A stretch of 35,080 bases of DNA from a virus. The stretch is taken from the IMG/VR virus record IMGVR_UViG_3300045910_000122, positions 1 through 35,080 of that record. One strand, 5' to 3'. A program made the position numbers and the translations under genes. Shown one piece after another: positions 5,978 through 32,575 of this stretch (positions are counted from its first letter, which is position 1; every line of letters starts with the position of its first letter). The notes below the pieces were generated by a model. The model had not been told where the DNA came from and searched no databases. It worked only from the letters and a program-made list of their open reading frames with translations.

Positions 5978-6399
5978 GAGGCGGCCGCCTTGACCCGGTG
6001 GGGGCAGTAGACGCAGTAGCCGGTGTCGTTGAACACGTGTTTGCAGGTGGTGAGGCCGCCCTGCTCGCCGCAGAGGACGCAGGTGAGGTGTCGGTCCTCG
6101 TCGAAGGGGGAGGGGTCGGCCCACCGGTGTTCGACGCAGGGGATCGCCTCGAGGCCGTCGATGCCGGCGGCGAGACGCAGCCGAGCCACGTCCGCGGTCG
6201 CCTTCAAAAGTTGGGAGGGTTTGGGAGCGAAGGCGTTGCCGAACCGATACCACTCGTTGAGGGCCTGCATCAGAGCGCCGGCGGAGAAAGGTGCGAAGTC
6301 CTCATAGAGCGACGGGAACGCTGACGGCACCCACGCCTTTTGGAATCCCCATCGGGCTTCCATCCAAGAGACGGCGCGCTCGAGGTCGGTGGGACTCAC
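5974..6399 (-). CDS. Replication-linked hypothetical protein with zinc ribbon
   Basis: 141 aa from a GTG that overlaps the upstream stop (GTGA). The N-terminal helical domain (ERAVSWMEARWGF; ALNEWYRFGNAFAPKPSQLL) has the small-helix plus 'FAPxPS' look of phage proteins found beside replisome-organiser genes, some of which load helicases. The C-terminus holds CVLCGEQGG...TCKHVFNDTGYCVYC, a four-Cys zinc ribbon. It lies directly after the replisome-organiser-like gene. A helicase-loading role is inference from position only. Confidence 0.6.
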   Translation of the reverse strand: MSPTDLERAVSWMEARWGFQKAWVPSAFPSLYEDFAPFSAGALMQALNEWYRFGNAFAPKPSQLLKATADVARLRLAAGIDGLEAIPCVEHRWADPSPFDEDRHLTCVLCGEQGGLTTCKHVFNDTGYCVYCPHRVKAAAS

Positions 6400-7298
6400 G
6401 CCGGTAACCCCTTCTGGGCGGTCATGTCAGCGGCGAGCTGCGCCCGGGCGTCACGGCGAGCGTTCTCCTGGAATTCGTCGACGCTTCGCTTGTCGATGTC
6501 GAACCCACCGCGCAGATCCCCGAGATTTCGGATGATTCCCGCAAGTCCGGGGCGGGCCTCTCCCCGCCAGCGGACAACCGCCTTCTCAACGAGGGGTTGG
6601 AGTTGGTCCGGTCGAACTCGGGCCTTCCGAAGTTGTTTGATCTCCCTGTTGCGCCGGTCCTTCTCAGGATCGGTTTCTGGGATCCCCCAAATCGCACACG
6701 CCGCATCCCAAAGCCCATCGACTCGGTGGTGCTGTTTGCCGGTGGTCGGATCCACCCAAACTTCGAGTCCGGTCTCAAGGTCCGATTTCGCTTCGTCGAA
6801 CACCGCCGACACCTCGACCGTAGGGAGAGGTTCTCTTATGGGGTGGGGCGGGACGCGCGCGCCCGCGTGAGGAGGGTTCGCGGACTCAGGCCAAGACTCC
6901 TGTGTGGAGTCCGGCCAGGTGTCCATCGGGGAGTCCACCGCGGACACCCCTCCGTTGCCCTTGCTACTCCGCTGATTTCGTTTCTGGTCGGCCCACTTTC
7001 CACGACGCTCCTGGACCTGCTGTTTCGACTCTTGATAGTCGGAGAAATCGTGGATAATCCATCCGTTTTCTGACTGAAACCAGAGCGAATTCGCGACCAA
7101 TTCCGCCGCGATTCCCGCGCGAAACCGAGCTGACTTCGTCGGAAGGCAGAGGGCAACGGCCGCCTGCGTGATCTTCCCATCAGTGAGGTTCGCCACCGAC
7201 CAGTTGAGCGCGGTGACAAACAATCGGAACCCGGCGTCGGAGAGCCCGATGACTTTCGGGTTGGTGTGAAAGCCGTCGTCGAGTCGAGTCCACGGCAT
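6396..7298 (-). CDS. Replisome-organiser-like protein
   Basis: 300 aa. The N-terminal domain begins MPWTRLDDGFHTNPKVIGLS and continues DAGFRLFVTALNWSVANLTDG, a winged-helix pattern typical of phage replication-initiation or replisome-organiser proteins (DnaD-related), which bind the origin and recruit helicase. A Ser/Pro-rich linker (about residues 110-165) follows, then a helical C-terminal domain (DGLWDAACAIWG; RNREIKQLRKARV). No ATPase motif. The start overlaps the previous stop as TGATG. It is the best candidate for replication initiation in the window; a specific origin inside it was not identified. Confidence 0.65.
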   Translation of the reverse strand: MPWTRLDDGFHTNPKVIGLSDAGFRLFVTALNWSVANLTDGKITQAAVALCLPTKSARFRAGIAAELVANSLWFQSENGWIIHDFSDYQESKQQVQERRGKWADQKRNQRSSKGNGGVSAVDSPMDTWPDSTQESWPESANPPHAGARVPPHPIREPLPTVEVSAVFDEAKSDLETGLEVWVDPTTGKQHHRVDGLWDAACAIWGIPETDPEKDRRNREIKQLRKARVRPDQLQPLVEKAVVRWRGEARPGLAGIIRNLGDLRGGFDIDKRSVDEFQENARRDARAQLAADMTAQKGLPA

Positions 7299-11742: not shown

Positions 11743-11933
11743 GGGACCCGGCTCAAATATCCCAGGGGACGGTTCGCGGGCTTCCCCAGAAGGCCGTCAC
11801 CCCCATCCCCTGAGATCCGGCCCGTTTGTCCGCCGGAAGGGTGGTGGGCGACGCCGGGGGGCGCTTGGGGAGGCGCAGACGGAAAAGCCAGTATCCGTCG
11901 TAAACGTCGCCCACCACTACTCAGAAACCTCAT
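11739..11933 (-). CDS. Possible 64-aa basic protein
   Basis: Starts MRFLSSGGRRLRRILAFPSA and is rich in Pro, Gly and Arg, without a recognisable fold. Evidence for coding is its exact 4-nt overlaps at both ends (ATGA with the LPVTG gene stop, ATGA with the 27-aa gene). Against it, the composition looks random and the frame contains a 13-bp inverted repeat (11841-11853 with 11905-11917), which would fit a regulatory spacer as well. Confidence 0.35.
   Translation of the reverse strand: MRFLSSGGRRLRRILAFPSAPPQAPPGVAHHPSGGQTGRISGDGGDGLLGKPANRPLGYLSRVP
11841..11917. repeat. 13-bp perfect inverted repeat, 51-nt spacer
   Basis: GTGGTGGGCGACG (11841-11853) and CGTCGCCCACCAC (11905-11917) are exact reverse complements. 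They lie within the doubtful 64-aa frame downstream of the wall-protein gene. The arms could form an RNA stem or be two half-sites for a DNA-binding protein. Confidence 0.6.
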
Positions 11934-12433
11934 CGGGTGGCTTCCTTCACCGCGATGCCGCCCAGGATCAGGAGGCAGGCGCCGGCGAAGATCAGGGTGT
12001 CGGTTTCGACCCGGTCCGACCCGGTCACGGGGAGAGTTGAACCGGGGTCAGTAGTTGTCGTGTCCCCGGAACCGGGGTCCGCCGTCGTCGTTATCAGGCT
12101 GGTGGACGTTGACGAGGGTCTTGAAGTGGACGTGGTCGGCGTTGAGGTCGTGGTGGACGGTTCCGACGTCGAAGAAGTCCCGGCAGCACTCGTCGTCGTA
12201 GAAGGGAGGGTGACGGTCGTGGTCGTGGCCTCCACCGTCGACGTCGTCTGGATGATCGTGGTGGTAGTGCTCTCGGGGAGAGTCGTCGTGGTCGACGTGG
12301 TGGTGGTGACGCACTTGTAGCCTCCGTAGGTGCAGTAGCCGGACGCGTTCGACGGCAAAGCGAAGATGAGGACCAGCGCCGCGACGATGGCGAGGATGAG
12401 GATTCCGATGAGGGTCCGGCGGTAGGCGGTCAC
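11930..12433 (-). CDS. Thr-rich LPVTG cell-wall-anchored protein
   Basis: 167 aa from GTG. N-terminal export signal (basic MTAYRR, hydrophobic residues 7-25), a short Cys pair (YCTYGGYKC, 33-41), then about 90 residues dominated by Thr/Ser, and a C-terminal sorting signal: LPVTG at 134-138, a hydrophobic helix (about 147-162) and a positive tail (KEATR). This is the layout of sortase substrates, cleaved between T and G and joined to peptidoglycan. The Thr-rich stalk is probably extended and may be glycosylated. Being second in the early operon beside the lysogeny switch, it may alter the host surface, for example to block superinfection; that is inference. Confidence 0.8.
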   Translation of the reverse strand: MTAYRRTLIGILILAIVAALVLIFALPSNASGYCTYGGYKCVTTTTSTTTTLPESTTTTIIQTTSTVEATTTTVTLPSTTTSAAGTSSTSEPSTTTSTPTTSTSRPSSTSTSLITTTADPGSGDTTTTDPGSTLPVTGSDRVETDTLIFAGACLLILGGIAVKEATR

Positions 12434-12612
12434 GGCGCAGGGGTCTCGCTTTCTGGTTTGGTCGTGGCGGGTTTGAGGCCGAGACGGTCAAGATGGAAAT
12501 AGACCCTCTGTGTGGAAATGCCGAGAAGGACTGAGATTTCTCGGGGGGAGAGCCCCTTGTGGGTGAAGTCCCGAACCTTGCGGCGACTCTCCGACAACTG
12601 CTCCGTGGTCAT
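12430..12612 (-). CDS. Small helix-turn-helix regulator, first early gene
   Basis: 60 aa starting MTTEQLSESRRKVRDFTHKG; the segment GLSPREISVLLGISTQRVYF (residues 20-39) is a good helix-turn-helix of the LuxR/sigma-region-4 or MarR-like small type. It is the first gene of the leftward early operon, 33 nt from the -10 box, with an imperfect palindrome between promoter and ATG. It may be a Cro-like or early-operon regulator. GTGA overlap with the wall-protein gene. Confidence 0.65.
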   Translation of the reverse strand: MTTEQLSESRRKVRDFTHKGLSPREISVLLGISTQRVYFHLDRLGLKPATTKPESETPAP

Positions 12613-12632: not shown

Positions 12633-12659
12633 CGAGTGAACGGGACACTACCTCACTCG
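12633..12659. promoter_or_regulatory. Operator-like dyad over the early -10 box
   Basis: CGAGTGA (12633-12639) and TCACTCG (12653-12659) are exact reverse complements separated by 13 nt. The dyad covers the -10 box of the leftward promoter, the classical place for repressor binding. The candidate ligand is the XRE-like protein at 12719 or the HTH protein at 12430. Confidence 0.45.
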
Positions 12660-12674
12660 TCAAGGGGTTGTCAA
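12645..12674 (-). promoter_or_regulatory. Early leftward promoter
   Basis: Minus strand TTGACA (12674-12669), 18-nt spacer, TAGTGT (12650-12645). Perfect -35 and a TANNNT-type actinobacterial -10. Drives the early chain starting at 12612. Its -35 overlaps the -35 of the rightward promoter, so the two compete for polymerase. Confidence 0.6.
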
Positions 12675-12696
12675 CTACTCTCGGGGGGTGTAGTTT
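12668..12696 (+). promoter_or_regulatory. Rightward lysogeny promoter
   Basis: TTGTCA (12668-12673), 17-nt spacer, TAGTTT (12691-12696), 22 nt before the ATG at 12719, which follows AAGGAGG. Drives the XRE-like gene and the integrase. Shares its -35 bases with the divergent early promoter. Confidence 0.55.
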
Positions 12697-12718
12697 TTCG
12701 GGTGACAAGGAGGCGGGA

Positions 12719-13033
12719 ATGACGACAACGCAGACGACCCCGTTTCATCGGGTGCTGCGTGAAACCCGGGGGTCCAGACCGAAAGCCGTTGCAGCTCGGA
12801 TGCTCGAGGTCGAATGGATGACCTACGACATGTGGGAGAAGGGGGCGTGGGTTCCCGGCGACGACTATGCGGAACGGCTCGCCGAGTTCACGGGCTCACC
12901 GATCGAAACGGTGGTGTGGATGCTCTACCTGGCGAGACTCGCCCGGAAGCGCGAAAATTCGGGTTTCCGCGGACGGTTCGCCTTCCCCAAAGTAGGTCCG
13001 CGGACCCAATCTGACCCTCTCGCCGTCGCCTAG
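12719..13033 (+). CDS. XRE/Cro-like regulator, putative repressor
   Basis: 104 aa; start chosen for the AAGGAGG just upstream. Residues about 20-60 fit a lambda-repressor-like helix-turn-helix: KAVAARMLEVEW, then MWEKGAWVPGDDYAERLAEF, where WEKGxxxP matches the WExGxxxP hallmark. The end (GFRGRFAFPKVGPRTQ) is basic and unstructured-looking. With the integrase it forms the rightward unit opposite the early operon, so a phage repressor or an integration-control (excise-like) factor are the two options. No C-terminal cleavage domain is present, so a LexA-type self-cleaving repressor is excluded. Confidence 0.65.
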   Translation: MTTTQTTPFHRVLRETRGSRPKAVAARMLEVEWMTYDMWEKGAWVPGDDYAERLAEFTGSPIETVVWMLYLARLARKRENSGFRGRFAFPKVGPRTQSDPLAVA

Positions 13034-13047
13034 CTTTCCCCCGCAAT

Positions 13048-13845
13048 GTGAGCCGGTACGCCGAATGGCTGCTCGCTCAGGGGTTGGACCCGTCGACCGT
13101 CACCATTTATGAGGGGAAACTGGTCCGAGCTGAGGCGATAGCCACCGAACAATCTTGGGATCTGCGGTACATGACCGCCACCCAACTCGGATGTCTCGCC
13201 GCCCGCTTCCCCTACTCGTCGTCAACCCAGACGATCCTCCGGTCCGCACTCACCCACTATTGGGCGATGTGCGGAGTCGACAATCCGGCCCGGGCGATCC
13301 GCTCCCCGAAACCTCCCCCCTTCCGGTATCGGGGTCTCGAACCGGATGAGTCCGCCCGCCTCGTCTCGGCGTCGAAGGGTTGGTGGCCCCACGGCACCGC
13401 GGTCCTCTTGGGCCTCTACCTTGCGTTGCGCCGACGTGAGATTGCAACGCTGCGGTGGGAGCAGTTCGAGGATGGTTGGGTCACAATCATGGGTAAAGGG
13501 TCACGGACCCGCCACCTTCCCGTCCACCAGTGTCTACGAGAGGTCCTAGAACCCCGTGAGAGCGTCGGATACCTGTTCCCCGGTCGTGGCGCCCACCCTT
13601 GCGTCCATTGTGGGACTGTGCGGACCTGGGTCGGCCTCGTCTCCGTCACCGCCGGTCTCGGCTACCTGTCTCCCCACCAGCTCCGACATACCTGTCTGGC
13701 TGAAATGCATGAGCAGACCGGAGACCTGCGAATCACCCAGTATTTCGCCGGCCACGCCGACCCCTCCACCACCGCCCGCTACACCCGAGCCACCAAACGG
13801 GCGTTGGTCGCCGCCGTCGACACCCTCTACCGGCCCGCCGCATGA
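13048..13845 (+). CDS. int: Tyrosine recombinase (integrase)
   Basis: 265 aa from GTG. N-terminal SAM-like core-binding domain (MSRYAEWLLAQGLDPSTVTI, to about residue 85) and a catalytic domain with the full set: R128 (LALRRREIATL), K150 (MGKGSRTR), H210 and R213 (PHQLRHT), H236 (GHADPS) and nucleophile Y245 (ARYTRA). An HPCVHCG Cys pair (185-188) is an unusual small insertion. It lacks the extra N-terminal arm-binding domain of lambda-type integrases, so it may act with simple sites like Xer or mycobacteriophage short integrases. It marks the phage as temperate. No attP core could be recognised. Overlaps the next gene (ATGA). Confidence 0.93.
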   Translation: MSRYAEWLLAQGLDPSTVTIYEGKLVRAEAIATEQSWDLRYMTATQLGCLAARFPYSSSTQTILRSALTHYWAMCGVDNPARAIRSPKPPPFRYRGLEPDESARLVSASKGWWPHGTAVLLGLYLALRRREIATLRWEQFEDGWVTIMGKGSRTRHLPVHQCLREVLEPRESVGYLFPGRGAHPCVHCGTVRTWVGLVSVTAGLGYLSPHQLRHTCLAEMHEQTGDLRITQYFAGHADPSTTARYTRATKRALVAAVDTLYRPAA

Positions 13846-24277: not shown

Positions 24278-24360
24278 GGAGGGTTGACCGAGTGGCAAGG
24301 TGCCCGGTTGCTAACCGGCGGCAGGCGACAGCTTCCCAGGTTCGATTCCTGGCCCCTCCG
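24278..24360 (+). tRNA. tRNA-Ser (anticodon GCT)
   Basis: Acceptor GGAGGGT with CCCCTCC (six of seven pairs) and discriminator G73 as in serine tRNAs, D-arm ACC/GGT with GAGTGG, anticodon loop TTGCTAA with T33 and A37, a long class II variable arm (about 15 nt) and a perfect T-arm CCAGG-TTCGATT-CCTGG. Reads AGC/AGU serine codons. On the strand opposite the surrounding late genes. CCA not encoded. Confidence 0.88.
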
Positions 24361-24361
24361 C

Positions 24362-26295: not shown

Positions 26296-27779
26296 CCGAT
26301 CAGGTGTCCCATCGTCGCGAGAGATTGGAAAACGTTGGCCTGGTTCTCAGCCACCAGCGGTTGTGACTCCCGGAAGGCGATTTCAGGGCCGTACCGCTTG
26401 TCGAATTCCTCTTGGAAGCGGGCGACGGGGTCGACCTCGGTGAACGTGCCTGGAGACGGTGCAACCCCGGTCTCTTCGATGGCGACCGCAGTATTGAATT
26501 TCGCTTCCGCGGCGCGGACCTCCTGGCGATATTGGGCTTCGGCGTCCGCACCCAACCGTCCCGCCCACTCCGCCAATTCGGAGCGGGTCGGGTCACGGCC
26601 GAGTTCGTTGCGGAACCCGTTTTTGACGGACTGGTTGAGGGCGGCCGGGTCGGGTTTGATGAACGGGTCCGCCTGGAACACTTTGGCCGCATCCCTCAAC
26701 CTGCGGGCCTCTTTGATGGATTCGGGGAGGTTGGCGGCCATGTTGAATAGGACCTCGTCGATGGTCTTCCCCGAGTTGTTCGCCATCCCCATCGTCGACA
26801 GGATCGCCTGGTATTCGACGTCGGTGAGGATCCCCGGCCAATACTCGCCCGGTTCCATCAGCCCCGCGTCAACAAGTCTCTTTTGCAGTTTCTCGGTGTC
26901 TTCGGGGGAAAGTCCTGAGAAGTTGAACTGGTCGCCCTCGAAGTATCGGGGTCCCCGCTCCTGGTCGACCCATGCTCGAGGGTCCGCCTCTCCGAACATC
27001 GAATCGGGTCGGCGTTCGGCTCGGGTGACGGTGTAGCCGGCGGGGACGCCGATCGGTCCGGCGGCGGTCTCCCAGGCAACAATCTGGTCTTGTAGGAAGT
27101 CTTCGACGGTGAGCGGGGTTCCCGGTTCGAGAGGAACCCCCTGACTTTCGAGGGTCTGGTTCGCTTTGATCTGGGTGGCGGCCTGGGCGACGATCTGGTC
27201 GACGATCCCCGGGTCCAACCCGGCGGCGGCTGCGGCGGATTCTGCCCTCCGGCGCAGCGACGGGCTGATAGTGGAACCGGCTGCGGGGGGGCGGGTTCGC
27301 CTAGCCCTATCCGCAGCCAACACCTGCCCGCGGCCGGTGAGGGGGGCGCCCTCCGGCGGGGTTTCGGTTCCGGTGACCCGCTGTTGGAGTTCTTGCGCCC
27401 GACTCAGATAGGTTTCGCCGCCGGGTTGGACCCGGTCGTAGAAGGCGTCGATCTTCTTCGACGCTGTTGATACCGCACCCGATATTGCGTCGGTGGTGGC
27501 GGTCCAAATCTTCGACCAGTCGGTCCCCGCCTGAGCGATCCCCGTCGTCAGCCGATCCAGAATGTCTCCGGCGTCGGCAAGGACGGCTTGGAGGCGGCGT
27601 GCCTCAGGTGTGACCGACCCCGCCGCCCCTGAAACCACACCACTTACCAGAGATTTCTCTTCACGGTCGAGGACGTCGATCGCCTCAGCCAGCTTCTCGG
27701 GGTCGACCTGTTCGATTGGTAGGCCCAAAGCCTCGTCGATATAGGCTTTGGCTTGTTCGAGAGTCATCTTCTTAGCCAT
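26292..27779 (-). CDS. Candidate ejection/internal virion protein
   Basis: 495 aa starting MAKKMTLEQAKAYIDEALGL. Helical throughout, with Ala/Glu-rich stretches. A middle motif LSPEDTEKLQKRLVDAGLME, PGEYWPG and YQAILSTMGMANNSGKTIDE resembles a peptidoglycan-binding-like or repeat module seen in structural proteins of other phages, but no catalytic residues are evident. Start overlaps the stop of the giant gene (TGATG). Inferred to be packaged with the 1598-aa protein. Confidence 0.5.
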   Translation of the reverse strand: MAKKMTLEQAKAYIDEALGLPIEQVDPEKLAEAIDVLDREEKSLVSGVVSGAAGSVTPEARRLQAVLADAGDILDRLTTGIAQAGTDWSKIWTATTDAISGAVSTASKKIDAFYDRVQPGGETYLSRAQELQQRVTGTETPPEGAPLTGRGQVLAADRARRTRPPAAGSTISPSLRRRAESAAAAAGLDPGIVDQIVAQAATQIKANQTLESQGVPLEPGTPLTVEDFLQDQIVAWETAAGPIGVPAGYTVTRAERRPDSMFGEADPRAWVDQERGPRYFEGDQFNFSGLSPEDTEKLQKRLVDAGLMEPGEYWPGILTDVEYQAILSTMGMANNSGKTIDEVLFNMAANLPESIKEARRLRDAAKVFQADPFIKPDPAALNQSVKNGFRNELGRDPTRSELAEWAGRLGADAEAQYRQEVRAAEAKFNTAVAIEETGVAPSPGTFTEVDPVARFQEEFDKRYGPEIAFRESQPLVAENQANVFQSLATMGHLIG

Positions 27780-30700
27780 CAGACCCCCTCATCCTCAGCC
27801 AGTTCACGTTCAAAAACTCCGGTCCACACCCGCGCAAAGTCAGGGTGTTGGGCGATGATTTCCCGGGCCGCCGACCTCAACAACGCTCGGATCGGTGCGG
27901 CGGATTTCGCCTGCTGGTAGCGGCGGACATTCCCCGGCAGTTGGGTGACCAACTGTTCGGCGACGGTGATAGCGGACAGGTATTTGATGATCCCCCGCCC
28001 CGCATCCGTCTGAGCCAGTTCAGGGTTGTTGACGGCGTCGCGGAGTTCGGTGATGGTCTGCTCGGCGGTCGGATGCTGTTCGGCGATCCGCTGTGAAACC
28101 CACCCGTCGAACCCGGGGTATTCGGCGGCGATCTGAGTGCGGACCTGCGCCAACCAGATTCCGGTGACCGGACCCGGCCGGCCGGCGGCGATCTTCTTCG
28201 CCTGCTCCCACTGGACCCGACCCAGAAAGTCGTTGGCAAGGGCGAGCTGTTCGGCAGGGGTCGTCGCCTCGCGTGCGCCGGTCTCGAATGCCCGGAGATA
28301 GGCGGTGTAGTCGAACGCTCCGGCGGCGGGTTCAGGGGCGAAGTAGCCGATACTCAACGGGAAGTCGCGTTCGGCTTCGGCATGGGCTCGCAACCAAGAG
28401 TCGCCCTGCTCGGTGACCGGTCGTTCGAGGACGGATTCGGATTTGCCGATGACCGCGAGGACGTTGTCGACACCGTAGCGGGTGACCCACTCGTTGAAGG
28501 CGGCGGTCCTGTCCCCCCCATACTCCTCGGTGAGCCGGCGCAGATCGTCGGAGAGCACTTTGACGGGGATGATGTTGCCCTGGACGTCCTTTGTGTTCCA
28601 CTGGAGGGAGGGGCCGGTGGGGACGGTTGATTGGGCGATACCCCGGATGAAGTAAAGGATTTTCGCCTTCGACGTCGCCGCGTCCAAGAGCTTCTGTTGG
28701 CCCTCCGCGGTGGTCAACGAGTATTTGCCGGTGGCGGCGAGGGCGCGCATGACGTCGGTGACGGTGTTGGCGAACTGACGGTGGTTCTTGTCAGGTTGGG
28801 AGAACACTTCCCGCAGTTTTTCGGCCCACGACGGGAGCACCGCTGCGATCGGGCTTTCGGAATCTCCAAACGGGAGGATGACATTTCTCAGATCATCCCA
28901 TTTGGGAGTGTTGGGAATCAGGTGGGAGGCGGGGATTTGGACGGCGGGACCGAACCCGGGGATGGCGGTCGCCGCCACAATGTTCAACCCCGACACGTTC
29001 CCCACGAAGTTGACGCCGGCACCACCCTCACCCAACCCGAGCATTTTCGAGGCGAGTGACCCGCCCGGATAGGTGAACACTTCCTGGCCGGTCTGAGGGT
29101 CGACGTGGAAAAACCCTTCCCCCGTCCCCTGAGACGTTTCCGGCTTCCCCAAGACTGACGGACCTCGAGCCCCTTCGAGGGCCTGTTGGAACCTGCGGAT
29201 GGTCGAAGGGTTCTGACGGAGGATGCGGGTCCAGGCGGTGACAATCTCCTTCCACGCCTCACCGAACGGGAAGACCAGACGCATCATGTCGAAAAACTGG
29301 GACCGCTTCTGGAGGTCGTAGAGCAGGGTTTTCGTTTCGGAGAGGGCGAAGGATTTGGCGAGGGCGTCGACGTCGTCGAGGGAGTGCAATCGGGTGCCTT
29401 CACCTTTGAGCATTTGGGAGGCCATGTCGGTGAGGATCTTGTCGCCGACGTTGGCCTCTCGAGCAGCCCGGATGATCGCCTCTTGGGTGGCCCGATCCGC
29501 GGAGCTGATGAGTTCTGAGCCTCGCTGCCAATACTTCTGGCGGAATGTCGGAGACCGGGAGAGGTAGTTGGTGGGCCGGGACATCAGAGCGCCGAATAGG
29601 TGTTCCACGAAGGCGTCCAATCTGTCCCCGGTCCTCTTGGTCGCACCCAGGCGGCGGACCGATTCGGGGGCTTTCACAAAGTTGGGGGCGGCATGGTCGT
29701 ATTCGGATTCGAGGATGCCGGCGAGTTTGGATCCGCCCCGGTCACCGCGCAGATTCACTTCTCCGAGTCGGCCTTTGGCGACGAGTTCGACGAGGTCGGG
29801 GTCCCCGCCGGTCATCCGCTCCAGCCGGTCAAACATGTTCTGTTTCAGATAGCCGTCCGCGGCCCGACGGTCGGTGAGCAACGCCTCGCGGCCTTCCATC
29901 TTGCCGAGTTGTTTCCGCCATTTCTGGCCGGTTCCCGACCAGAACCATTCGGACACATCATCGAAGGTGGACAAGGGAGCCTCATCCGCAACATCGGCGA
30001 GTTCGTCGAAGGCGTCGTCAAGGGTGTAGAACTTGGGATTGGGAGACTTGCCGGCCGCCTGTGCTCGACGTAGATACTCGTCCTGAGCCCTCATGATTTC
30101 TTTGAACATGGGACTGTCAATTTCGTCGGGTCCGAGGACTGTCCCGTCGGCCAGTAGCACCTTTCGATTGCCGGCGGCGTCGAGACCGACCTGATCGACG
30201 TCGGCGGCGTTGAACTGGCGCCCTCCGGGAGTAGTCCACTCGACCGATGTGGCCTTCCCGTTGATGGTGACCGTCCGGGTTCCGGCTGCGGATTTGCCGC
30301 CGGACCGACCGATCGACCGCAAATCCCCTTCGGAGAGACCTCCGGCGACCCGTCGCATGACCGGGTCGTTCGCCTCATGGGAGAGTTCAGCCACCCACCC
30401 CGGGTAGAACCCCTCGTCGCCGTGACGGGCCTTCACATACCGTCCGGTCAGGATCTCCCCAGGCAACCCCCGGTGGCCTGCCGAACCGCGGGAGAGGGCG
30501 GACTGGTGTTCGACCACGTCATCCCACGCTTCGCCGAGCATGGTCTGGGTGCCTTTCGGATCTATGAGCTTCTTGGCGCCTTCGGCGACTCGTTTGCCGA
30601 GGCGGGATTGGGGGTCGACGGAGAGCTGCCATGCGATCGCCGAGGCGGGATGGTTGAACAACGAGTCGTAGCCGGAGGCGGCGACCCGGACCTGCTCTTC

Positions 30701-32575
30701 ACCGACCACACGGACCGTGTAGGCGCCTCTTAGGAGTTGGAGGGGCTTCCAAATCTGGGTCATCACCGCGTCTGCGAAGTCCACGCTCCCCTTCCACAAC
30801 CCTGAGTCGTAGACCCCCTGGAGTTGTTTCACGATCGGTGTCACCCGGCGGATGTCCCGGGCGTCGGGCAAATGAATCACGTCGTCGATGAGTTCGGAAA
30901 TCAGGCCGGGGGTGGGGCGGACGTCGATCATGGTCCCCTCCACGTCGATCCGTAGAGGGGCGAGGGTGTCGACGTTGCGGCCCATATCGTCGAAGTCGTA
31001 GGCGGTCAGGTCGTCGGAGAGCCGCTGGTGGGAGGCGGTCAGTTTCCGGGCTCGGGCGGGGGAGACCCCCCACTCTTTCACCAACGCGCCTTCCGCACCG
31101 GAGAGGACCCCGTGGGGTCCGAGCACCGCGTTGTACATGCCGACTTGGTCGCCCGCTTCGACCCGTGAGAGTTGTTCGATGTAGGAGGCCCGAGTCGCTT
31201 CGGGGATTTGGGCGTTGACCATCCACAAGTCGAGTTCGCGGGCGGCGCCGTCGGGGTCGTGAATGCTGATCTTGTTGGCCGGCATGTCCTCACCCAACCG
31301 GCCGATCCGCCCCAGGAAGTCCAGTCGGGTGTTGTCGGCCAACTGGGTTTTCGCATCCGAGCCCATCAGCGTGCCGAAATGGTTTTTGGGTCCGGCGATC
31401 GTCTTGGTGACGAACCGGGCGGACGGCCGCTCCCTGACCACCAGGCCGAGAGTGTCGGCGAGGATGTCGAAGGTTTCGGTGTCGTCGGTGGTCGCCGCCA
31501 ACCGTCTCGCCAGGTTGAGGCCGCCTTGTCCGGGTTGGCCGATCGCCTTCCACGCCCGGTACACGTCCCGATTCTCCGTCAACGCTCGGACGGTGCGTTG
31601 GCCGGCGGGGGAGGTCAGGAAATGGTTGACACCCTGCTCCACCGACACCGTCTTACGGACCCCAGGGATGGCGCCGATCGCTTGGAAGGATTGGGCCGCC
31701 TTGTTCGACTTCCCCACCCCCATCAGAGCGGCGGCGGCAGGGTCTAAGACGATGTTCTGCTCGAAGTCGGCGAGGCCCGAGACGGTCTGGTAGGCGAAGG
31801 AGCCGGGTTCGGTCACCATCCGGGCCATGATCCGGCCCGGGGTGACGAACTGGCCGTCGAGCTGCAACCGGTATTTGGCGGCTTCCCGTTCGGCGTAAAC
31901 CTCCCCGCCGGGTAGGAACCCTTCGCCGAGACCGGCCGGTTTCCCCTCTAGAAGATTGGATATGGCGATGGACCCGCCGGAGCGGGCCGCCTTCTCAGTG
32001 AAGTTCGTCCAGAAATCGGATATGAGTTTGACGGGGTCGGCGAGTTCTTCGGCGATGTCGCCGGCGTAGGCGGCGTAGGTTCCCGGGTTCGCCAACTGGA
32101 GGATATTCCCCGCTCCGGCGAACGGGAGTTCAGCTTTGGAGGGTTCCGACTCGTCGAACAATGCTTGTCCTGCGCTCGAGAGGAGGGCTTGGATCTCCTC
32201 AAAGGGGAGAGACAGGATGGTGAACCCGGTGCGGACGACGGGTTTGGCCCAGGAGGTTGCGGTGTTCCACAGGGTCTCATACCAGGCGTCGGGGACTTCC
32301 TCGGCGGGGTTGGTGAAATCTCCGTCTTCTGCCGCCTGACGTGCCGCCTGATCGGCGATGGATTGGACTTGGGGGAGGTCGGCGGGGAGTCCGGCTTGGA
32401 CGAAGGATTGGATGAGGGTCGGATCCATTGAGGGGTAGGCGTCGGCGTAGGAGGCGGCCAACTGGCCCATTTGGGGGGTCAACGTGGCGGCCCTGCCGAG
32501 GATGCGGGTGCGGCGTTGGGCGACCTCGTCGAGCAGCAACGACTCTTCGCTCACCGCCATGAACGGTCTAGTCAT
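27779..32575 (-). CDS. 1598-aa giant virion protein, probable ejection protein
   Basis: The largest gene in the window. It is helix-rich overall, with amphipathic and weakly hydrophobic stretches (VRTGFTILSLPFEEIQALLS; NIVAATAIPGFGPAVQIPAS) but no clear membrane span, nucleotide-binding, transglycosylase or polymerase motif that I can recognise. A C-terminal part has FPLSIGYFAPEPAAGAFDYT, a YFAPE-type motif I associate with large uncharacterised actinophage proteins. Size and position between portal and capsid parallel internal core or ejection proteins of short-tailed phages (T7 gp16 is about 1300 aa). Starts ATG, overlapping the upstream gene by 8 nt. Confidence 0.6.
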   Translation of the reverse strand: MTRPFMAVSEESLLLDEVAQRRTRILGRAATLTPQMGQLAASYADAYPSMDPTLIQSFVQAGLPADLPQVQSIADQAARQAAEDGDFTNPAEEVPDAWYETLWNTATSWAKPVVRTGFTILSLPFEEIQALLSSAGQALFDESEPSKAELPFAGAGNILQLANPGTYAAYAGDIAEELADPVKLISDFWTNFTEKAARSGGSIAISNLLEGKPAGLGEGFLPGGEVYAEREAAKYRLQLDGQFVTPGRIMARMVTEPGSFAYQTVSGLADFEQNIVLDPAAAALMGVGKSNKAAQSFQAIGAIPGVRKTVSVEQGVNHFLTSPAGQRTVRALTENRDVYRAWKAIGQPGQGGLNLARRLAATTDDTETFDILADTLGLVVRERPSARFVTKTIAGPKNHFGTLMGSDAKTQLADNTRLDFLGRIGRLGEDMPANKISIHDPDGAARELDLWMVNAQIPEATRASYIEQLSRVEAGDQVGMYNAVLGPHGVLSGAEGALVKEWGVSPARARKLTASHQRLSDDLTAYDFDDMGRNVDTLAPLRIDVEGTMIDVRPTPGLISELIDDVIHLPDARDIRRVTPIVKQLQGVYDSGLWKGSVDFADAVMTQIWKPLQLLRGAYTVRVVGEEQVRVAASGYDSLFNHPASAIAWQLSVDPQSRLGKRVAEGAKKLIDPKGTQTMLGEAWDDVVEHQSALSRGSAGHRGLPGEILTGRYVKARHGDEGFYPGWVAELSHEANDPVMRRVAGGLSEGDLRSIGRSGGKSAAGTRTVTINGKATSVEWTTPGGRQFNAADVDQVGLDAAGNRKVLLADGTVLGPDEIDSPMFKEIMRAQDEYLRRAQAAGKSPNPKFYTLDDAFDELADVADEAPLSTFDDVSEWFWSGTGQKWRKQLGKMEGREALLTDRRAADGYLKQNMFDRLERMTGGDPDLVELVAKGRLGEVNLRGDRGGSKLAGILESEYDHAAPNFVKAPESVRRLGATKRTGDRLDAFVEHLFGALMSRPTNYLSRSPTFRQKYWQRGSELISSADRATQEAIIRAAREANVGDKILTDMASQMLKGEGTRLHSLDDVDALAKSFALSETKTLLYDLQKRSQFFDMMRLVFPFGEAWKEIVTAWTRILRQNPSTIRRFQQALEGARGPSVLGKPETSQGTGEGFFHVDPQTGQEVFTYPGGSLASKMLGLGEGGAGVNFVGNVSGLNIVAATAIPGFGPAVQIPASHLIPNTPKWDDLRNVILPFGDSESPIAAVLPSWAEKLREVFSQPDKNHRQFANTVTDVMRALAATGKYSLTTAEGQQKLLDAATSKAKILYFIRGIAQSTVPTGPSLQWNTKDVQGNIIPVKVLSDDLRRLTEEYGGDRTAAFNEWVTRYGVDNVLAVIGKSESVLERPVTEQGDSWLRAHAEAERDFPLSIGYFAPEPAAGAFDYTAYLRAFETGAREATTPAEQLALANDFLGRVQWEQAKKIAAGRPGPVTGIWLAQVRTQIAAEYPGFDGWVSQRIAEQHPTAEQTITELRDAVNNPELAQTDAGRGIIKYLSAITVAEQLVTQLPGNVRRYQQAKSAAPIRALLRSAAREIIAQHPDFARVWTGVFERELAEDEGV

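Follow-up and report, generated by a model that had tools for sequence, protein, structure and literature searches.

A putative sortase-anchored Thr/Ser-rich protein from the early operon of a temperate actinophage

A short gene beside the lysogeny switch of a virus record raises the question of whether a temperate phage supplies its host's sortase with a protein of its own, and at what stage and to what end it would do so. The gene, here called the LPxTG gene after the motif near the end of its product, lies in IMG/VR virus record IMGVR_UViG_3300045910_000122, of which the whole 35,080 nucleotides were analysed (the window; Table 1) and which has no end repeats. The phage is temperate and appears, by its capsid relatives, to be actinobacterial: its capsid protein is 41% identical to those of the Mycobacterium phages Mendokysei and Bernal13 and 31–44% identical to those of prophages, nearly all in Actinomycetota, and the 42 bacterial genome loci with relatives likewise come nearly all from this phylum. 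A search for a host through the integrase found none in genome contigs. The same virus was also recovered, with identical sequence, from a second sample (IMG/VR 3300045978_000063), in a contig that ends before the LPxTG gene.

Table 1 Features of the LPxTG gene, its product and its surroundings, in window positions unless another locus is named.
Feature	Position	Strand	Remarks
Replication initiation protein	6396..7298	-	Same strand, farther along the early gene block
LPxTG protein gene	11930..12433	-	167 aa; GTG start at 12433, stop 11932-11930
Short tail KEATR	11933..11947	-	Net charge about +1; direct reading
C-terminal hydrophobic helix	11948..11998	-	Residues ~146-162; hydropathy and predicted helix
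LPVTG sortase-type motif	12020..12034	-	Residues 134-138
Thr/Ser-rich stalk, ~90 residues	12035..12307	-	Residues 43-133
Cys-flanked head YCTYGGYKC	12311..12337	-	Residues 33-41; direct reading
N-terminal hydrophobic export signal or anchor	12356..12415	-	Residues ~7-26; hydropathy and predicted helix
First operon gene, 60-aa HTH protein	12430..12612	-	Overlaps start of LPxTG gene
Likely operon promoter TTGACA-18-TAGTGT	12645..12674	-	32 nt before HTH ATG; direct reading
Divergent HTH gene, probable repressor	12668..13033	+	Weak HTH_31 match; likely start ATG 12719
Tyrosine integrase	13048..13845	+	Beside divergent HTH gene
ORF of 88 aa in related locus L018	L018:19692-19958	-	Ends LPYTG-helix-K...; Cys-rich start; beside endolysin

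The sequence-only reading had assigned the interval 11930–12433 to this gene, and the interval proved correct, with the ORF on the minus strand. Comparison of all six frames over 12433–11930 revealed that the LPxTG frame alone runs without a stop, and its codon score, calculated from the usage of the phage's other genes, was the only positive one (+16.7; other frames, -6 to -99). A chance frame opposite other coding DNA, a reading suggested by plus-strand ORFs of 115–138 aa in the same stretch, is nearly excluded by these two results, by the overlap of the ORF with the HTH gene of the operon and by the coherent membrane-protein architecture of its product. The LPxTG gene is a genuine gene, and since phage genes flank it on both sides, host contamination is no concern. 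Its Thr codons comprise 21 ACG vs 20 ACC, compared with 79 vs 300 in the rest of the phage; this lean toward ACG would suit a stalk expanded through triplet repeats or acquired from elsewhere.

The gene had also been described as the second of the early operon, and this description holds: it follows the gene of the 60-aa HTH protein and adjoins the divergent HTH/integrase region. The two genes overlap by GTGA, the TGA of the former lying across the GTG of the latter, and direct reading found no evident Shine-Dalgarno sequence for the LPxTG gene, so that its translation is probably coupled to that of the HTH gene. The operon promoter candidate, which was not listed by a consensus promoter scan, has inverted repeats (AACTAC/GTAGTT and GAGTGA/TCACTC) on or beside it; neither that scan nor direct reading found a separate promoter for the LPxTG gene. 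Downstream of the LPxTG gene, the minus strand carries genes of a resolvase-like nuclease, the replication initiator and HNH/endonuclease VII-like proteins. Because the operon leads into replication genes, it is taken to be the early operon, presumably silent in the lysogen. Directly 3' of the LPxTG gene lies a 13-bp perfect inverted repeat (GTGGTGGGCGACG / CGTCGCCCACCAC, 51 nt apart, window 11841–11917) that occurs only once in the window; folding of this 3' region was no more stable than that of its shuffles.

This arrangement bears on the time at which the protein would be made. Coating of the lysogen, which the sequence-only reading had suggested, is now less likely, because an operon that runs into replication genes should be shut off there unless the LPxTG gene has its own promoter. 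The same evidence weighs on a second possibility, that the product is a lysogenic-conversion adhesin made in the lysogen from its own promoter and, like SasX, alters host attachment or aggregation. There are precedents for such a protein in SasX on phiSPbeta (PMC10232760, PMC8655729) and in phiD12-like prophages (PMC6546898), and a Thr/Ser stalk suits a displayed head; against it stand the position of the gene in an operon leading to replication genes, its GTGA overlap with the first gene, the negative promoter searches, and a head that spans only about 10 residues and lacks an adhesive domain. We regard this adhesin role as improbable.

The LPxTG protein can be written as VTAYRRTLIGILILAIVAALVLIFALPSNASGYCTYGGYKCV-(Thr/Ser stalk)-GSTLPVTGSDRVETDTLIFAGACLLILGGIAVKEATR. 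Kyte-Doolittle peaks reach 3.3 in the N-terminal hydrophobic stretch and 2.0 in the C-terminal one. The former is preceded by RR and followed by the small residues SNASG, and is predicted from hydropathy to be an export signal; at about 20 residues it is long for a cleaved signal and may therefore be an uncleaved anchor. Residues 31–146 include 46 T and 20 S. AlphaFold without an alignment gave exactly two helices (3–25 and 140–166) with disorder between them, at a mean pLDDT of 53, so that the model serves as a topology hint only. The order of parts claimed earlier was thus largely borne out by hydropathy and direct reading (export segment, Thr/Ser stalk, LPVTG and helix), except that the tail is only weakly positive, its K and R being set against one E. 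An enzyme would not fit into so small a head. The stalk may be a target of O-mannosylation, a modification carried out by actinobacteria and required in the host for infection by phage phiC31 (PMC5982138).

Among the features of a sortase substrate, the protein has an export segment (by hydropathy), the LPVTG motif and a hydrophobic helix after the motif. Its C-terminus matched neither TIGR01167 nor PF00746, and the best scores, of about 9 bits, were to different sorting-signal models with cut-offs of 27–32; such curated models are a detection aid and do not define a sortase substrate. The placement of the motif was compared with chance in 400,000 shuffles of residues 31–146 that kept composition, and 0.1% of these placed LPxTG no more than 14 residues from the helix. 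Loci totalling 1.27 Mb, both related and unrelated, were surveyed in all six frames; of their 8,297 ORFs (minimum length 50 aa), only two distinct ones combined LPxTG, a hydrophobic stretch at the C-terminus and a short tail, namely the LPxTG gene and the 88-aa ORF of L018. In the related phage and prophage loci, ORFs of 70 aa or longer yielded no further case in which Thr+Ser above 30% went with a strongly hydrophobic terminus. A pattern search for a T-stalk with LPxTG matched 10 viral contigs, none of the 10 with a C-terminal sorting signal; since the pattern was rare in bacterial genomes too (1/119), the viral search says little about rarity.

These results also bear on a simpler reading, in which the product is a two-helix membrane-tethered protein with its Thr/Ser loop outside, uncut by sortase, and LPVTG is fortuitous in a stretch that contains T, P, G and L. 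The long N-terminal hydrophobic stretch together with the C-terminal helix, the silence of the curated models, the weak charge of the tail and the lack of homologues all suit such a protein; the closeness of LPxTG to the helix, a 0.1% event by shuffling, and the presence of the combination in just one other ORF among the 8,297 do not. We consider it possible, if somewhat unlikely, and the stalk would be displayed outside whether the protein is anchored or membrane-tethered.

Whether a sortase would be at hand was approached through the host group. Of 80 Actinomycetota genomes sampled, 68 encode a sortase that scores above the Pfam cut-off. Many actinobacteria of soil and water, however, use class E sortases, for which LAXTG is the preferred motif (PMC5148588), so host identity matters for anchoring through LPVTG.

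No homologue of the LPxTG protein appeared in any collection searched, and a pattern search found no relative of its head. Matches to the whole protein, to the N-terminal 51 residues and to the motif CxYGGYxC were attributable to chance, T-rich matches in 15 Actinomycetota genomes to composition only, and a PADLOC match to PD-T4-6 was judged to be low-complexity. Nor was an LPxTG gene found at the same locus in related phages: it is missing from the switch regions of L002 and L019. L002 resembles the phage in its integrase (68–69%) and in the same layout of an HTH gene divergent from an HTH–integrase pair, and its HTH protein at the matching place shares 36% identity across 42 aa with the 60-aa HTH protein; the second slot after it holds a 67-aa soluble ORF instead of the LPxTG gene. 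In L019 (capsid 69%, integrase 39%) the second slot holds a 73-aa ORF with hydrophobic stretches (L022:17019–17240, minus strand) that overlaps the end of the switch-proximal HTH gene. The absence of the LPxTG gene from both switches indicates that it is accessory. L018 (capsid 70%) does not have this switch, so absence of the gene there says nothing. In the late region of the phage, a 1,598-aa ORF (window 27779–32575, minus strand) takes up about one seventh of the record and has counterparts in L018 and L019 (30–69%), and a tRNA-Ser (GCT) lies on the plus strand (window 24278–24361) inside the minus-strand late gene block.

The LPYTG ORF of L018 is unrelated to the LPxTG gene. It scored 14.9 bits against TIGR01167 (cut-off 15.9), its LPYTG is well placed and GGAAGG precedes its ATG. 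Because it lacks an export signal, overlaps a likely gene in antisense at its end and gave no relatives, it is a weak parallel only.

Taking these lines together, we lean slightly toward the LPxTG protein being an accessory (moron) sortase substrate that is displayed early in infection. The order of parts, rare by shuffling and among the ORFs surveyed, counts for sortase anchoring, and the coding frame, HTH overlap, operon setting, actinobacterial relatives and frequency of sortases count for the moron sortase-substrate reading, as does the L018 ORF with LPYTG and helix near the TIGR01167 cut-off. Counting against anchoring are the silent curated models and weak tail charge, the LAXTG preference of the class E sortases that the host may use, and the lack of homologues that would show selection on LPVTG; anchoring may also be slow relative to the lytic cycle. 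In the proposed scheme, the second gene of the early operon would yield a protein exported via Sec by its N-terminal hydrophobic segment and held by its C-terminal helix, until the host sortase, most likely, cuts LPVT/G and joins it to peptidoglycan, so that, early in infection, a flexible Thr/Ser stalk would present the small Cys-flanked head.

As a first guess at its purpose, the protein would mask the cell against further phage adsorption. Such superinfection blocking is conjecture; the simplest idea fitting the early timing is a fringe on the cell surface that would conceal receptors or trap virions, and superinfection-exclusion functions often sit among small early genes. A broader version, in which actinophages of this capsid lineage place unrelated, fast-changing small proteins into the wall via the host sortase and thereby shut out competitors, would have as its cases the LPxTG gene and perhaps the L018 ORF; we think it quite improbable, and if true it would amount to phage-run remodelling of the cell surface. 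Actinophage proteins acting at the wall exterior are poorly known, and a sortase-dependent early protein, if real, would be a simple route by which a phage changes its host's surface.

The earlier statement that reports of phage-encoded sortase substrates are rare holds for actinophages within the literature searched, where incomplete coverage makes the absence of actinophage-borne LPXTG proteins weak evidence, and has to be qualified by the prophage precedents of staphylococci and group B streptococci. Exported proteins with Thr-rich stalks are common in Actinomycetota, and together with sortase substrates of these bacteria they share stalk composition and sorting-signal layout with the LPxTG protein; the T-rich exported proteins have folded domains and no LPxTG, whereas the LPxTG protein has only its ten-residue Cys head. 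CwpV of Clostridioides difficile is not known to be a sortase LPXTG protein. It is described as a wall protein giving phage resistance (PMC4737114), and this protection by a surface protein is the function guessed for the LPxTG protein; CwpV is bacterial and not phage-encoded. The closest likenesses, drawn by description, are to Firmicute prophages. SasX/SesI of staphylococcal phiSPbeta-like prophages is also a phage-borne LPXTG wall protein for the host sortase, and SasX promotes aggregation and colonisation (PMC10232760, PMC8655729); an NCBIfam scan of the LPxTG protein named no SasX family. The phiD12-like prophages of Streptococcus agalactiae (group B) carry a hypothetical LPXTG protein, proposed to be an adhesin (PMC6546898), again in a Firmicute host. 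The LPxTG gene is new in sequence, and examples of its kind already exist in Firmicute prophages; in contrast to the lysogen-expressed aggregation and colonisation factor SasX/SesI, it belongs to the early operon of an actinophage, and this placement is the interesting part.
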